This document shows, piece by piece, positions 55,858 through 64,000 of a DNA stretch of 64,000 nucleotides. The notes under the pieces are model-generated. The model was not told the origin of the DNA. It worked only from the letters and a program-made list of their open reading frames with translations, and searched no databases. The DNA lies in assembly GCA_903642265.1 (NCBI GenBank), contig CAHJWN010000009.1:1-64000 (forward strand). The letters run 5' to 3'. Position numbers and translations under genes: made by a program. Origin of the DNA: Acidobacteriaceae bacterium (GTDB lineage Bacteria; Acidobacteriota; Terriglobia; Terriglobales; Acidobacteriaceae). Positions within the stretch are counted from its first letter, which is position 1, and every line of letters begins with the position of its first letter.

Positions 55858-57186
55858 TTGCTAACCGCTCAGCAATTCCCAAGTGAGAGTCTGGGACGAC
55901 AGATCGAAAGCGCCCAGCCGAATGTGGCAGCCGCCACGCCCGATTCTGCGTCGATGACACTCAAAATGTGGGTTATGGTGCTTCTCACAGGAACAGGAGC
56001 GGGCCTCACCAGCGGATTGCTGATGAGGCTGCTTCGCTTGGCTCAACACCTCACCTTTTCCTACTCATCCGGGGACTTTCTTCTAGGAGTGCGCCACGTC
56101 TCGCCGATGCACAGACTCCTGGCGGTCTCGCTGGGAGGCGTAATCGCGGGGTTATCCCTCTATATCTTGCGGCGAATGACGGGTGGGTCGGGGGCGGAAG
56201 TGACCGGATCCATCTGGCATAAACAGGGCCGTTTCGAAGCCGGCCCGACGATTGCAAAGTCCATCATTTCGATTGTGATTGTAGGCATGGGTGCCGCCAT
56301 CGGCCGCGAAGCTGCTCTCAAGGACACGGGGGCCACCGTCGCAGGCAAGATATCCGACTGGACCAGCATGTCACTTCCACAAAGGCGGCTGCTCGTGGCG
56401 TGTGGGGCAGGAGCCGGAATGGCAGCAGCCTACAATGTGCCTCTGGGCGGCGCACTCTTCGCAATCGAGGTTCTTCTGGGAACCATGTCCCTGACGAATG
56501 TCCTGGCGGCCGTACTCGCCTCTGTCACCGCTGTGGCAGTCTCTTGGTTGCTTCTTCCGAACGCACCTACGTTCCAAGTGGCGCAGCTCTCGATCAGCCC
56601 CTCTTTAATATTATGGGCCGTGATCGCAGGTCCGCTTCTTGGGGCAGCTTCTGCCGTATACGTCCGGTTCATCGGCTGGTCCGAATCGGGCAAACCAAAA
56701 GAGTACATGGTGATTCTTGCTCCGATTCTCGTGTTCATCGGTCTGGGCGTTCTTTCTATGCGCTTTCCCGAAGTTCTTGGAAACGGTAAGAACGTTGTCC
56801 AGGAAGCCTTTGGAAGCCAGCTAGGAACGGGTTTGCTCTGTTGGTTGCTGATACTCAGGCCGCTGGCAACAGCTATGTGCCTCAAGTCCGGCGCACCAGG
56901 CGGACTATTCACGCCCACGATGACGTTTGGAGCGCTACTCGGGGGCCTGTTCGGGGAGGGGTGGAGCCATCTCGCTCCATCGGTTTCCAAAGATAGCTAT
57001 GCCATTGTTGGAGCTGGCGCAATGCTGGCGTCGGCGTCGCAGGGGCCGATCTCATCGGTTGTCTTCATGTTGGAGTTGACGAATCACACGGACGCCCTGA
57101 TCGTTCCTTTGATCATTGCAGTCGCTGGTGCCACCCTGATGGCGCGAAGAATGGAAGTCCACTCTATCTACTCCATCCGCGGCTGA
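55858..57186 (+). CDS. ClC-family anion channel/transporter
   Basis: 442 residues from TTG 55858 with GGAAGGAGACGA directly before it. About ten membrane helices; GGSGAEVTGSIWH at the first filter region, AAIGREAALKDTGATVAG where GREGP is usual (Gly-Pro replaced by Ala-Ala), GAPGGLFTPTMTFGALLGG at the GxFxP region. The changes at the filter suggest altered anion selectivity. It follows the efflux operon by 42 bp. It is not close to the ClcB-like protein at 28919-30190. Confidence 0.85.
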   Translation: MLTAQQFPSESLGRQIESAQPNVAAATPDSASMTLKMWVMVLLTGTGAGLTSGLLMRLLRLAQHLTFSYSSGDFLLGVRHVSPMHRLLAVSLGGVIAGLSLYILRRMTGGSGAEVTGSIWHKQGRFEAGPTIAKSIISIVIVGMGAAIGREAALKDTGATVAGKISDWTSMSLPQRRLLVACGAGAGMAAAYNVPLGGALFAIEVLLGTMSLTNVLAAVLASVTAVAVSWLLLPNAPTFQVAQLSISPSLILWAVIAGPLLGAASAVYVRFIGWSESGKPKEYMVILAPILVFIGLGVLSMRFPEVLGNGKNVVQEAFGSQLGTGLLCWLLILRPLATAMCLKSGAPGGLFTPTMTFGALLGGLFGEGWSHLAPSVSKDSYAIVGAGAMLASASQGPISSVVFMLELTNHTDALIVPLIIAVAGATLMARRMEVHSIYSIRG

Positions 57187-59096: not shown

Positions 59097-59567
59097 TCAC
59101 GCCCGTCGACCTACCCGTCCCTTTCCAGTCGCCACTCGGAAGTCAGCAAACAACGGAACATCCTTCTCCAGCGGCGTCACCGACACAAAGTTCAATCCGA
59201 CCTGCTCGTGACCCTCCGGGTGCTGCTCTCTCCAGAGCACACGAAGGAACTCCGGCCAATTGTCCTGGACGTAGAAAGTGCGCGAGACCTTCGCATGGCA
59301 CGACAGACAGAGCGTAATCATCGTAGCCGGATCATTGTTCCCCGGCTCCCGATGGTGAACTGCGACGGACCGCTTGCCTCTCTTTAGCGTCGTACAGCCG
59401 ACCACGCGGCAACGGTAGCCGTCCCGCTTTAACACTTCTTCGCGATGGCCACCGAAGTAAGCCTCATCCTGGCGCTTCAGCGTGTAGCAGGTAGCACAGA
59501 GGCCCCTCGCCAGCACTTTCGGCTGACCGCAAGGACAGTGCATCACGCGTTGAGTCCCGGCTTTCAC
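59097..59567 (-). CDS. HNH-endonuclease-like zinc protein
   Basis: 156 residues from GTG 59567, overlapping the stop of the recombinase gene (GTGA). N-terminal zinc ribbon-like MHCPCGQPKVLARGLCATCY, then the HNH region KRDGYRCRVVGCTTLKRG...VAVHHREPGNNDPATMITLCLSCHAKV with the HH pair and the two CxxC-type Cys pairs. HNH nucleases cut DNA in homing, restriction or packaging. The tail (about 50 residues) is not typical. Tight coupling to a serine recombinase suggests they act as one module. Confidence 0.8.
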   Translation of the reverse strand: MKAGTQRVMHCPCGQPKVLARGLCATCYTLKRQDEAYFGGHREEVLKRDGYRCRVVGCTTLKRGKRSVAVHHREPGNNDPATMITLCLSCHAKVSRTFYVQDNWPEFLRVLWREQHPEGHEQVGLNFVSVTPLEKDVPLFADFRVATGKGRVGRRA

Positions 59568-60172
59568 TTCCCTGCCCCTGCAACGTATCTATATAGAGTC
59601 TGACGACTGATGCCCAACTCGCCGGCAAGCGCAGTTTTGGATTCGCCGGCCGCAACTCGCCGCCGAAGATCTTTCGCCTGTGAGGGGTTGAGACAATGCT
59701 TCCGGCCCACATAAGCTCCTTCGCGTAGCTTCGCCAAAGCAATTCCCTCCCGCTGGCGTTCTCGGATCAGGTCACGCTCAAATTGAGCGAACGCTCCCAT
59801 GACATTGAGGAGCAGATGCGACATCGGCGAGTCTTCCCCGGTGAAGGTAAGGTTCTCTTTCTCGAAGCGGACGTGTACGCCGCGATCCGTGAAGCCGAGG
59901 ACCACCTTGCGAAGATCGTCCAGGTTGCGGGCCAGCCGGTCCATTGAGTGGCAGATCACCGTGTCGCCCTCACGCACGTAGCCGGTCAACTGCTCCAGCT
60001 GCGGCCGGTGGAGATCCTTACCAGAAGCCTTATCTACAAAACGCTTGTCGAGCGTAAAGCCGTCGAGCTGTCGCAGTTCCTTCTGATCGAGAGAGCTTAC
60101 ACGCAGGTAGCCGACGAGTTGGCCCGCCCTGCGCCGCCCTTTTGTCACTTTAGGTTCTTGAGGATTGACCAT
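59564..60172 (-). CDS. serine recombinase (resolvase/invertase family)
   Basis: 202 residues. Catalytic Ser in GYLRVSSLDQ (Ser 26), then VICHSMDRLARNLDDLRKVV, GVHVRFEKENLTF and MGAFAQFERDLIRERQREGIALAK, with a C-terminal helix-turn-helix (PSQAKDLRRRVAAGESKTALAGELGISRQTLYRYV). These are Tn3-resolvase/DNA-invertase features. There is no transposase next to it. A 16-residue basic leader precedes the usual start of the family. Candidate sites lie in the 120 bp upstream. Confidence 0.93.
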   Translation of the reverse strand: MVNPQEPKVTKGRRRAGQLVGYLRVSSLDQKELRQLDGFTLDKRFVDKASGKDLHRPQLEQLTGYVREGDTVICHSMDRLARNLDDLRKVVLGFTDRGVHVRFEKENLTFTGEDSPMSHLLLNVMGAFAQFERDLIRERQREGIALAKLREGAYVGRKHCLNPSQAKDLRRRVAAGESKTALAGELGISRQTLYRYVAGAGK

Positions 60173-60295
60173 CTCGTGTCACAATAACAGAACCGCGACC
60201 CTTGTGAGACGTGATTCTGTCACACATCCCATGTACCGCAGGGGTATACCCATCCACGACAGCGCAAATCTGGTTGCGCCTAGGAAGAGGTTGAG
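60173..60295. promoter_or_regulatory. divergent region with candidate recombination sites
   Basis: Between recombinase (minus) and the next gene (plus). TGTCACAATAACAGAA at about 60177 and TTCTGTCACA at about 60215 are inverted partners, GGGTATACCC at 60242-60251 is a perfect palindrome, and GCGCAA-ATCTGG-TTGCGC at 60262-60279 is a hairpin just before the plus-strand gene. They could be res subsites or operators; none is proven. Confidence 0.45.
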
Positions 60296-60895
60296 ATGTT
60301 TCCCGATTTTCCCGAATTGAAAAAGACGGTACTGGAACAGGCTCACGCAACCATGCGTCGCATGGTGCATGAAAAGCATCCTGTGCTGGCGGAAATAAAG
60401 AGCTATACCCAGCACGAAGGCCGCTCTATGAGGTATGAACAAGTGGGCTACGGTGAAAAGCAGGAAGATCTAACCGCCGCTTCCTTCCCCATCGAGATTA
60501 CATTTGATGAGGTTCCCTCTCTCATTGGTGACAAGCTCAGCGAGAAGATGGCAAAACTCGCGGATGCGGTAGGTGAACATCAAATGAATCTCTTGCTCAC
60601 AAAGCACAACGAAGCAACGGAGATGACGGGTAATCGGATTGATGCGAGAGGACGCCCCATGAATGGGGACCTGCTTCTTCAAATGATGGAAACAATGCCT
60701 ATGGACTTCGATTCGGCTGGAAACATCCTTCCCACGACAACGCTCTTAACCCATTCAGCCATGGCTCCTTCATACCAAGCCGCGATCAAAGAGATTGAAA
60801 ATGACCCAGAGCTACAGTCCCGGCACCGAGCAGACGTCAACCGGCAATACAACGATTGGCTTGATCGAGAGAATAATAGAAAACTGGTTGACTAG
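60296..60895 (+). CDS. unknown protein A of candidate defence pair
   Basis: 199 residues, ATG 60296 after GAAGAGGTTG. Soluble, mostly helical and charged: MFPDFPELKKTVLEQAHATMRR at the start, an ITFDEVPSLIGDKLSEKMAKLADAVGEHQMNLLL helix in the middle and EIENDPELQSRHRADVNRQYNDWLDREN at the end. I recognise no domain or catalytic motif. It overlaps the next gene by 95 bp in another frame, an unusually long overlap, so the two are surely one operon. The downstream gene has a nuclease-like domain, which makes this a candidate sensor, regulator or immunity partner. Confidence 0.7.
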   Translation: MFPDFPELKKTVLEQAHATMRRMVHEKHPVLAEIKSYTQHEGRSMRYEQVGYGEKQEDLTAASFPIEITFDEVPSLIGDKLSEKMAKLADAVGEHQMNLLLTKHNEATEMTGNRIDARGRPMNGDLLLQMMETMPMDFDSAGNILPTTTLLTHSAMAPSYQAAIKEIENDPELQSRHRADVNRQYNDWLDRENNRKLVD

Positions 60896-62435
60896 CGCAA
60901 GCGAGCGAAGCTTCCAGATTCCCTTTTGCCAGCTCCTATCAGCCCAAGGCGAGAAACTGCTGTACATCGCGAGCCATGGCCAGTTCGAAAAAGGCAAGGA
61001 TGTCGTCACGGAGACTTCAGGCGGACAGCTCCGCGCTTATCAAATGAAGGGCGGCGACATCAAGCTTGCTCAATGGCGAGAAATAGACAAGCAGATAAAC
61101 AACCTGGTTGAGCTTCCTATTCAGCTTCCATCTGTGAGAAGTACGGACTGGCATGAGCCCTTTTTGGTCACCAACGGACGTGTCGAAGATGCCGTTCTGG
61201 ACTACATCAACACTGCTAATTTAGGTTGGTCTCGAAGAAGCTTTCCCTTTCCCCTCAGGACGATTGAGAAGAGCAATCTCGTTCGTCAATTCACCGAACT
61301 TCATGGAACGTTCCTTCCAAAAGAGACAAGAGACTTTCAGGCACTTCTCAGTCTTATACTTCGCGATGGTCGCGCACCCCTCGACAAGCCCGCGTTCGCC
61401 GCCTTCATAGAAGGAACTCTCCCGTTAGAAACAGCCACGCTTGCCAAAAAGCGGGATGGTGCTCGTGCGATCACCAGTTGCCTTCTTCTCACCAGTTACA
61501 TTCTCGGAAGCTCGGTTGCTGTCTCTAACCATTGGCCACAGTTTGAGGCGTGGACTATGGTATGCAGCTACATCTTGTGCATGGCTACGCGCTATTCCCT
61601 AGCTAAGGAGTATTGGAAGGATTCTTACGATCTTGCGCTGATATCGGCACGCCGGGCGCTGGCGGATCTTATACAGGAGTGCCAGGAACGAACTGAATAT
61701 GTTGAAGGTCATCCTCTTGGAGACGGTTATTTTTACGGAGCGCGACAAACACTGTTATCTGGTCTTGTTGCTGCCTGGGCCTTGAACCAACGGAGGGCTG
61801 GGAATCCATCTTCCTTCCCGGCAAAGTTCTACAGGCAATCATTGCGTAAGAGTTTTTATTGGGGTGAGTCAGCCGCTCCATATCTGGCGTTAGCCGCAAT
61901 AGACCTAGAGATGAACTGCCAGTCAGCTAGTGCAGAGAACCTAATGTTCCAGATCCTTCAAATCGCCAGCTCTGCCAACGAACCGAATAGAAGGGGTATT
62001 CCCGACATCTTCACCTCGGTTGAAGATGCACTGGTCTTCCAGCATCGACTGAAGCCATTTCAACCGGAAAGCTACGCTGGATTCTCCTACGTCATTGAAT
62101 TCACTACGGAGTACCTTGCCAGGCGTTGGCGGCGACAGGGATTAGCGCAGCGGTGGCGAGGTCTCACCCAGATCTCTCTGATGACCTCAGTACCTAATGA
62201 AGAATGGGAGTGGTTCCGCTGGCGGGCCGAGAACCTTTCGTTAGCCTCAAGACGCTACCCAGAACCCCAGAGTTGGCAAAGTCTACGAACCGAAGCTGAA
62301 GCGCGAAACGCATCTGGTTTGCCTACACTCCTCCAACAGGAACCTGAGTTTTTGTCCTATTTCGTCATGGTCTTTCCGCATCGGCTTAATGTACATACGA
62401 TGAGGGGCCTTGAATTGGCGTTTGGTGCCTGCTAG
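60801..62435 (+). CDS. unknown protein B with candidate Mrr-like nuclease domain
   Basis: 544 residues from ATG 60801; a TTG 6 bp earlier is also possible. Residues about 20-100 look like a PD-(D/E)xK nuclease of the Q-x-K kind: E36 in ERSFQIPFCQLLSAQG, D67 in HGQFEKGKDVV, then Q81 and K83 in LRAYQMKGGDIKLAQW. The remaining 440 residues are helical, Trp/Arg/Leu rich, with no motif I can name, and could be a sensor. The domain call is pattern-based and needs a profile search. The stop codon shares bases (CTAG) with the stop of the convergent HEPN-like gene. Confidence 0.7.
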   Translation: MTQSYSPGTEQTSTGNTTIGLIERIIENWLTSASERSFQIPFCQLLSAQGEKLLYIASHGQFEKGKDVVTETSGGQLRAYQMKGGDIKLAQWREIDKQINNLVELPIQLPSVRSTDWHEPFLVTNGRVEDAVLDYINTANLGWSRRSFPFPLRTIEKSNLVRQFTELHGTFLPKETRDFQALLSLILRDGRAPLDKPAFAAFIEGTLPLETATLAKKRDGARAITSCLLLTSYILGSSVAVSNHWPQFEAWTMVCSYILCMATRYSLAKEYWKDSYDLALISARRALADLIQECQERTEYVEGHPLGDGYFYGARQTLLSGLVAAWALNQRRAGNPSSFPAKFYRQSLRKSFYWGESAAPYLALAAIDLEMNCQSASAENLMFQILQIASSANEPNRRGIPDIFTSVEDALVFQHRLKPFQPESYAGFSYVIEFTTEYLARRWRRQGLAQRWRGLTQISLMTSVPNEEWEWFRWRAENLSLASRRYPEPQSWQSLRTEAEARNASGLPTLLQQEPEFLSYFVMVFPHRLNVHTMRGLELAFGAC

Positions 62436-63037
62436 GGCTGTTGGTCCTCAGATTCAGCAACTAGAGAACGTGTCACAACTGACCATGAGCGGGGTTGCAA
62501 ACCTTTCATCGTTAAAGCGTCCTCTTCCGTAGATTCTGGAATGCGCGCCAAGAGTTTTGTCAGTTCTTCAACGATGTCCCACACGGACTTATGGGCCAGC
62601 TTCAGCTCATCTATCGAGAGCGTTCTAAAGTCTCTTTCGCTCTCCTTTTGATGTGGCAATGCGGCTGAAAACGCAGTGCCAAAGATTTCCTCGTCGCTAG
62701 AACGCGCCCAGCAAAAATGCGCAAACCGGTTCCTCATGCCCCGAGCAACGTCAATAGCTGGATTGATCTTGTTAATCGCCTGCAGCAGGTCATAGTCGAG
62801 GACGCGGCAACAGTACCGGACACGCTGAATTTCTACAGCTTGAGTGATGGCTTTCTGGAGCTGCACCGCTCCCATCTGATCGGTGTACACACGGCCAAGG
62901 AACTCGGGGGTCATGAGCACTCGGCTAAGGAGCTGACCAAGAAGAAACTCTACGTTCGACCACTCGATTCCGATGCGGCCGATAAGCTCCGCTTGTTCCG
63001 TGGTCAGATCCGAATATGCGTTGTGATTCAGTGACAT
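62432..63037 (-). CDS. HEPN-like protein (RX4H motif)
   Basis: 201 residues from ATG 63037, with AGGGG 6 bp upstream; ten more codons are open upstream. An all-helical protein: AELIGRIGIEWSNVEFLLGQLLSRVL, then DLLQAINKINPAIDVARGMRNRFAHFCWA. The string RNRFAH (R102 to H107) is an RX4H motif at the end of a helix after an IDVARGM lead-in, as in HEPN ribonucleases of toxin and defence systems. I see no MNT or other antitoxin next to it. It could also be a non-catalytic HEPN dimerisation protein. Confidence 0.65.
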   Translation of the reverse strand: MSLNHNAYSDLTTEQAELIGRIGIEWSNVEFLLGQLLSRVLMTPEFLGRVYTDQMGAVQLQKAITQAVEIQRVRYCCRVLDYDLLQAINKINPAIDVARGMRNRFAHFCWARSSDEEIFGTAFSAALPHQKESERDFRTLSIDELKLAHKSVWDIVEELTKLLARIPESTEEDALTMKGLQPRSWSVVTRSLVAESEDQQP

Positions 63038-63090
63038 AGCTAACCCCTGACGTTTTCTGACTATCAACGAAAATACTCTACGCAGCCTTG

Positions 63091-64000
63091 CTAAGCGGGC
63101 CAGTAGATCTTTTTTAGGGGCAGGAGAACCCGCGTCTCGGCGTCCATGTTGTCGTAATGCTCCATTACCGACTTCCCTAGACCATCTAGATCCAAGAGAG
63201 CGAGGTGATGATTCGCTCTTTCCGCCTCATATCGCGCTTCGCGTGTGAATCCTCCTGTCGATACGTACAGACCGTTATCCCGCTGGCGCAGGCCGCCCAA
63301 AAATGCACGGACATCGGGAGCTCCTATTGTGCCTTTTCGATGTTTTACCTCTACGAGGATGCGTGGTTCCTGAAATCCGAAGCCATCGGGTGATGCGATG
63401 ATGTCGCGCCCTCGATCGGCACCAGGAGCCGAGACTTGCGTCTTATAACCCATAGCTCTCAATAGCCCTGCTACAAGCTCCTGCATTTCATCCCATTCAA
63501 GACGGACGATGCGATCCTGAAGGAATTCCAACGCCTTCTGCTCGATGTCACGTCGAATGTCTGATTCGGCAGCGATTGCCTCTGTCGGCGTTGCGAGCGG
63601 TGCTTCGCTGAGCACATCATTTGCCGCGGTCTCCACGTGGCCCGAAAGCCGGTCGAATATCTCCTTCGTTGCTTCATCCGAGATACAAAAGATGGTTGCA
63701 ATGGACCCAAGTGAGTTCTTTGTTTGAGGTGTGAGAACATCCCGGCTCACTTCTTTGTCCCATTGGACTGCCTTGGTGTGTCGCAGTTCCTCGTCGGCAA
63801 GTGGGTTATAAATATAATCCCCTGTTACGGTGCCAACACGGTACATCCGATTCGCAGGTTCGTACATCAATACTGTGCTTCCCTGCACCAGCTCTTCCTT
63901 GAAACGGAAGATCTGCCCCGTTGCATTTGCGAGTCGCAGTCGGTTGTAGTCACCGAACTCCGCCGACACTAAAGCCGAGATCTCCTCACGGGTATGAACG
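63091..64000 (-). CDS. Mrr-type restriction endonuclease, partial
   Basis: The frame stops at 63091 and is open through the right edge, with residues VHTREEISALVSAEFGDYNR before the GTG at 63969, so the true start lies outside. N-terminal part: GQIFRFKEELVQGSTVLMYEP, YRVGTVTGDYIYNP and HTKAVQWDKE, a PUA/EVE-like or Mrr-associated domain. C-terminal Mrr_cat domain: MQELVAGLLRAMGYKTQVSAPG, ADRGRDIIASPDG, ILVEVKHRKGTIGAPDVRAFLGGL with catalytic D and ExK. Such Type IV enzymes cut modified DNA. It follows the HEPN-like gene direction and ends the island in view. Confidence 0.88.
   Translation of the reverse strand, partial: VHTREEISALVSAEFGDYNRLRLANATGQIFRFKEELVQGSTVLMYEPANRMYRVGTVTGDYIYNPLADEELRHTKAVQWDKEVSRDVLTPQTKNSLGSIATIFCISDEATKEIFDRLSGHVETAANDVLSEAPLATPTEAIAAESDIRRDIEQKALEFLQDRIVRLEWDEMQELVAGLLRAMGYKTQVSAPGADRGRDIIASPDGFGFQEPRILVEVKHRKGTIGAPDVRAFLGGLRQRDNGLYVSTGGFTREARYEAERANHHLALLDLDGLGKSVMEHYDNMDAETRVLLPLKKIYWPA

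Follow-up and report, generated by a model that had tools for sequence, protein, structure and literature searches.

A conserved pair of overlapping genes in Acidobacteriota, Roseomonas, and Rhodococcus encodes a protein of no recognized family and a predicted Mrr-type nuclease

Near the end of a 64,000-nucleotide stretch from an Acidobacteriaceae bacterium (positions 1 to 64000 of the 74,378-base contig CAHJWN010000009.1; here, the window) lie two overlapping forward-strand genes, A and B, that form a real, conserved, and co-inherited two-gene unit. Eight such pairs were recovered, six in Acidobacteriota, one in Roseomonas, and one on a Rhodococcus plasmid, and in all eight, A is directly upstream of B and overlaps it in the same frame relation. 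The N-terminus of B is a predicted Mrr-type nuclease domain, and we give about an even chance to the reading that the two genes make up a nuclease system that moves horizontally and is most likely directed against phages (foreign DNA). A preliminary description, made from the letters of the window alone, had proposed both a fixed A-B partnership and a role in defense: the partnership is well supported by the eight pairs and by the presence of both genes in five of 399 genomes of the class, whereas the defense role is plausible and circumstantial, based as it is on three of the eight pairs residing beside recognized defense genes.

Besides the window, the pairs come from the Rhodococcus plasmid (L004), two Acidobacteria metagenome-assembled genomes (MAGs; L008 and L009), Roseomonas nepalensis (L010), and three further genomes of the class (L021, L022, and L023); each contig was counted once (L020 is identical to L009, L014 lies on the L009 contig, and L006 lies on the contig of L011, discussed below). 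In the window, gene A (60296..60895, forward strand) is an open frame of 199 amino acids (aa), as first described, and its seven homologues each stand directly upstream of a B gene. Gene B is indeed open from an ATG at 60801 to 62435 (544 aa), but a start at the conserved TTG at 60861 (60861..62435, forward strand, 524 aa) appears more likely because an NTG codon occurs at exactly 35 bp of overlap in seven of the eight pairs (TTG in the window, L008, and L010; GTG in L021 and L022; ATG in L004; CTG in L009; the eighth, L023, has ATG at 32 bp), because the position of ATG 60801 carries ATG in three loci only (the window, L008, and L009), and because L021 has no earlier start codon between the preceding in-frame stop and its 35-bp start. 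The overlap of 95 bp originally reported assumes the ATG; the conserved one, in which the end of A covers the start of B, is 35 bp (60861..60895, forward strand), with B in the +1 frame of A in all eight pairs. A Shine-Dalgarno-like sequence is visible by eye in L004, L021, and L022 only, with none visible in the window, and a sigma-70 scan of 60100-63100 returned no promoter-like site.

Searches with the window A and B proteins singly recovered no relative from 296 further genomes of the phylum, nor did a single-protein scan of genome contigs with window B. A tblastn search of plasmids with B reached one place, on the Rhodococcus plasmid, where a gene annotated as "restriction endonuclease" (B) is preceded by an overlapping gene for a 195-aa hypothetical protein. 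BLASTP does not link this protein to A (best E value, 0.13); its global alignment with A scores above 2000 of 2000 shuffles (z, 5.1), and it obtains 28.6 bits against a profile of six other A proteins, for which the best of 500 shuffles reached 4.4. Profiles of the remaining members likewise recover left-out A and left-out B proteins; among the former, L023 scores 36.9 bits and L010 scores 116.4 bits against profiles built without them (best of 500 shuffles each, 4.1 and 5.7). A two-row B profile, run on 396 genomes of the phylum, yielded, apart from the window's own genome, only a match in genome G159 and a fusion protein in genome G307; a second scan of genome contigs yielded four loci, namely, L008, L009, L010, and L011 (the G307 fusion); and a five-row B profile, run on 399 genomes of the class, added L021, L022, and L023.

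Co-occurrence was assessed with an A profile (E up to 0.01) and a B profile (E up to 0.001), each applied to a sample of 399 genomes of the class; the settings for drawing the two samples were identical. Both searches recovered the same five genomes (G000, G686, G713, G729, and G430), in which A and B are adjacent and B is either intact or split by a contig end, and no genome in this sample carries an intact A alone or an intact B alone. A sixth genome, with two weak matches to A (G747; E, 0.004 and 0.008), was set aside, the first match falling in an open frame of 826 aa with PAS domains ahead of the matching region. A sixth genome matching B (G503) covers only profile positions 459-545, at the C-terminus and behind a start that looks antitoxin-like by eye; we took it as a remnant and dropped it from the pair count. 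Two other candidates were rejected: a Paracoccus sequence resembling A (L005; E, 6e-3) straddles two genes, covering the end of sucD and the beginning of the one after it, and is a chance match, and the G159 match to B (L007) lies inside what appears by eye to be an AMP-forming ligase. The 146-aa open frame of L025 (6540-6980) begins like an antitoxin, as judged by eye, and continues into the final ~87 profile positions of B; it is probably what remained after a deletion.

When all reading-frame segments of at least 40 aa were considered in 12 loci plus the window, the eight pairs alone contained A, which was absent from L011, L012, and L025. The two genes have also diverged in step: with the overlap removed, pairwise divergences of A and B correlate at r = 0.96 across seven pairs (L023, whose B is cut, is left out), and of 5040 relabelings, only the true one reaches this value. 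The A proteins span 191 to 234 aa, and the seven complete B proteins span 511 to 552 aa.

The nuclease core of B occupies 60876..61199 (forward strand; residues 26-133, with residues counted from ATG 60801 throughout). Eleven positions are identical in all eight B proteins (E35, R36, H59, G60, E63, G65, K66, D67, Q81, K83, and G85), and these include the E...D...QxK arrangement expected of an Mrr-type PD-(D/E)xK site, in which a glutamate lies upstream of the catalytic D...(D/E/Q)xK. The corresponding codons lie on the forward strand at 60903..60905 (E35), 60999..61001 (D67, within HGxxExGKD), and 61041..61049 (Q81-x-K83). The preliminary description had placed D67, Q81, and K83 correctly, and their conservation in homologues is complete; its glutamate was off by one, residue 36 being an arginine. 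The Rhodococcus B protein passes the Pfam cutoff for Mrr_cat (PF04471; 22.8 versus 21 bits) and aligns with the nuclease core of window B at an E value of 8e-12 in a two-sequence comparison; the N-terminal piece of L023 B falls just below the cutoff (19 versus 21 bits). Window B has only subthreshold matches in Pfam, PADLOC, PHROGs, and NCBIfam (in PADLOC-DB 2.0.0, only PDC-M18B, with an E value of 0.038 over 36 residues), the Rhodococcus A and B proteins have no match in PADLOC-DB 2.0.0 at an E value of 0.01, and the last ~400 residues of B are recognized by no library searched. B matches no housekeeping family in these libraries, and none of the three observations that the preliminary description had named as refuting was made.

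In one report, EcoKMrr and the MspJI family, enzymes that respond to modified DNA, have PD-QxK as their catalytic site (PMC12707154), and another places it in other fusions of the Mrr catalytic domain (PMC11037411). Such a site raises the prospect that A-B is an obligate two-subunit, type IV-like restriction enzyme, in which A would recognize modified or foreign DNA and B would cut it directly, leaving the host alive; the overlap, which suggests fixed proportions of the two subunits, would suit such an enzyme. Neither A nor B, however, has a known modification-reading domain above the Pfam cutoff, and we regard this explanation as quite improbable.

In L011 (Pyrinomonadaceae) and L012 (a viral contig), the same nuclease module forms the C-terminal end of a different protein (hhalign, 97%). 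Similarity to the rest of B was not detectable in the ~415 residues that precede the module in this fusion, and no A gene was found in the 12.2-kb stretch of either locus. In L011 (2634-6402), the gene for the fusion comes after an NsnA-like gene (PADLOC E, 1.1e-60) and a gene for a 189-aa protein without a PADLOC match; in L012 (3035-6393; an IMG/VR contig), it follows a gene that by eye resembles ATP-grasp peptide-modifying enzymes, along with a possible 212-aa precursor gene.

Protein A was said initially to have no recognizable motif, and no library searched recognizes it: window A matches nothing above cutoff in Pfam, PADLOC, PHROGs, or NCBIfam. Only M1, E41, A89, G112, R195, and L197 are invariant among the eight A proteins, and A is probably a binding partner rather than an enzyme because almost no polar residues are invariant. 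Several features would also fit a toxin-antitoxin module, in which B would be a DNA-cutting toxin and A its antitoxin, together maintaining mobile DNA or causing dormancy or death upon stress, with any effect on phages a by-product: a small gene directly upstream overlaps the nuclease gene and is inherited with it, A has few invariant residues, and pairs occur also outside obvious defense islands. Yet A, at 191 to 234 aa, has no DNA-binding or antitoxin domain above cutoff, and B is much larger than typical type II toxins. On balance, we consider a toxin-antitoxin module possible but unlikely.

A phage origin of A was also pursued. In the PDB, a five-row A profile matched best to the major head protein of a phage (9m66 Gp6; E, 0.39), collinear with A residues 37-113; eight-row and four-row A profiles did not return this match. 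We compared A with a profile of 10 capsid proteins of one HK97-fold family (an eleventh fetched gene, L053, was left out). The hhalign score with eight A rows was 21.1 (P, 0.032), varying from 22.5 (P, 0.02) without L023 to 18.7 (P, 0.078) without L023 and L004 and 23.9 (P, 0.012) with four rows. Reversed A scored 11.4, B against the capsids scored 12.4, and 60 column shuffles of A averaged 12.9 with a maximum of 24.3; as such, the best shuffle exceeds the real score, and an HK97-capsid origin of A is not supported. In addition, tblastn of two A proteins against phages (E up to 10) hit no gene annotated as capsid: 14 records were annotated as "structural protein," "pectate lyase," sliding clamp, or hypothetical and one as major tail protein, all at an E value of 2 or worse. 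A more elaborate proposal, that A-B is a two-component immune system in which phage assembly factors would bind a capsid-derived (HK97-type) A, a decoy or mimic, and so free B to cut DNA, appears to us extremely unlikely: a sensor-effector pair of two components is compatible with everything found, but the capsid origin derives only from a collinear resemblance that failed its controls.

Genomic context supplies the argument for defense. Three of the eight pairs adjoin recognized defense genes, each of a different kind: the window pair is beside a type III restriction-modification (R-M) system and the PADLOC candidate PDC-S02, the Rhodococcus pair is beside a PDC-M23B/HamB-like helicase and OLD/AriA-like genes, and the L021 pair is beside the DISARM genes DrmMI and DrmD. 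The count of three may be too low since, across the five remaining loci, PADLOC was applied to no more than two L009 proteins and one L010 protein. Judged by eye, the pairs of L008, L010, and L022 reside among ordinary or transposase-like genes, and L009 and L023 are cut by contig ends. At L010 (9797-11283), the start of an EF-Tu gene occurs twice, with an ambiguous stretch interrupting the first copy; this is probably an assembly artifact. In all six loci compared, the G+C content of A and B is below that of the whole fetched locus (in the window, below the average of 55.8%), which fits DNA that has moved, without proving it.

Mobile genes near the pairs allow for another explanation, namely, that A-B helps to maintain, or takes part in DNA processing by, the mobile element on which it resides and has nothing to do with immunity. 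A serine recombinase adjoins the window pair, L009 has a gene with a weak match to TnsB (E, 9.4e-5), and L022 contains genes that are IS110-like by eye. However, these mobile genes vary by locus while A-B is constant, and three pairs are found among defense genes of three different kinds; we find such an explanation very doubtful.

Several observations weigh against a horizontally moving anti-phage system with B as its nuclease. No defense genes were seen at five of the eight loci, which were surveyed mostly by eye, and the low G+C content could be a property of the A and B genes rather than a sign of recent transfer. The pair was found neither in scans of viral contigs nor in phage records queried with the window proteins, and only one pair is present among 72,556 plasmid records. 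With respect to B itself, only one of the eight proteins passes the Pfam cutoff, window B and five others having no Mrr_cat match, and the alignment score of the C-terminal parts of the Rhodococcus and window B proteins is reached by 97 of 2000 shuffles and thus is not significant.

If A-B is an anti-phage nuclease system, B would be its effector, with the N-terminal Mrr-type PD-(D/E)xK domain, predicted from the invariant E...D...QxK, cutting DNA, and with the long C-terminal part either sensing a trigger or holding the partner. A, which is encoded first, would keep B inactive or aim it, possibly in a complex with B. Because translation of B would start inside the end of A, the two proteins are probably made in fixed proportion.

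The remaining genes around the window pair fall outside the A-B unit. Downstream, and convergent with B, are a HEPN-like gene (62432..63067, reverse strand; ATG at 63037) and a gene with an Mrr domain (63091..64000, reverse strand, continuing to contig position 64110). The latter is a genuine Mrr gene, as first supposed (PF04471 E, 6.4e-25), and its product matches PADLOC candidate PDC-S02 (E, 2.6e-87); relatives of this protein adjoin restriction or methyltransferase genes on Proteus and Salipiger plasmids. The HEPN-like protein does contain the RX4H motif attributed to it (R-N-R-F-A-H), and a published account describes Rx4-6H with a polar residue after the arginine for the HEPN superfamily and links at least 16 HEPN clades to R-M systems (PMC3710099). 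Its similarity to a family is weak (PF18736 E, 0.033; 14.4 bits versus a cutoff of 26.6), and no relative was found in 150 other genomes of the class or, at an E value of 0.001, in plasmids. Beyond the window, upstream of the Mrr gene on the same strand, lie the type III restriction subunit gene res (contig 64123-66708; PF04851; PADLOC REase_III E, 2.7e-185) and the methyltransferase gene mod (contig 66714-68516; PF01555; PADLOC MTase_III E, 2.8e-187); 12 bases separate the Mrr gene from res, and 5 separate res from mod. These two genes and the HEPN-like and Mrr genes appear to form a single operon of a familiar type, that of a type III R-M system. None of the other A-B neighborhoods listed has the four genes in this arrangement, and we therefore place them outside the A-B unit. 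The four nuclease genes that the preliminary description had treated as one setting thus resolve into two units, A-B on the forward strand and the HEPN-like and Mrr genes of the type III R-M operon on the reverse strand.

On the other side, the serine recombinase (59564..60172, reverse strand; PF00239 E, 8.7e-33) is divergent from A and was correctly recognized at the outset. The HNH-like protein (59097..59567, reverse strand), whose gene overlaps that of the recombinase by 4 bp, draws support from PHROGs (8048; E, 6.1e-8) and remains below the Pfam cutoff for HNH (E, 0.049). Farther out, a gene that is chloride-channel-like by eye (55858-57186) has four further matches in the genome; a search for this flanking gene in 20 relatives gave matches of at most 46% identity and established no empty site. 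The continuation of the contig (L003, 6747-12377) contains UmuC/UmuD-like genes, a DUF6946 gene, an SOS-associated peptidase (SRAP) gene, and a gene that is ArdC-like by eye and suggests a longer mobile island. An SRAP gene is near A-B in two of the eight loci (L003 10043-10762, by Pfam; L021 9574-10308, by eye).

Set against known systems, A-B most resembles Mrr and type IV endonucleases such as EcoKMrr and the MspJI family, with which it shares the predicted E...D...QxK and, in the Rhodococcus B protein, an above-cutoff Mrr_cat match; it differs in that the nuclease domain of B is N-terminal and followed by ~400 unrecognized residues, in its putative separate partner A, and in having no modification-reading domain that we could find. 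The neighboring PDC-S02 protein, whose relatives lie beside restriction genes on two plasmids, is likewise an Mrr-type nuclease, but its N-terminal region differs and window B matches no PDC-S02 model. The fusion of L011 and L012 shares the module, there C-terminal and without an A gene, in contrast with its N-terminal position in B. Type II toxin-antitoxin modules have the same layout, in which a small gene precedes and overlaps that of the effector, but no toxin or antitoxin family in the libraries searched matches A or B above cutoff. Searches by the Rhodococcus accessions and locus tag and for two-gene Mrr-type or unassigned defense systems found no published description of the pair, in a literature in which subscription papers were scarcely covered; A-B is apparently undescribed, with this negative being weak evidence of novelty.

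The two pairs scanned, those of the window and Rhodococcus, are absent from the defense-gene library PADLOC-DB 2.0.0, and the same Mrr-type nuclease module is present in at least two protein architectures, the A-B pairs and the L011/L012 fusion. The pair spans ~2.1 kb and has conserved predicted catalytic residues. If A-B restricts phages, it would constitute a rare and compact two-gene system, with a partner, A, of no recognized family, that is present in three phyla.

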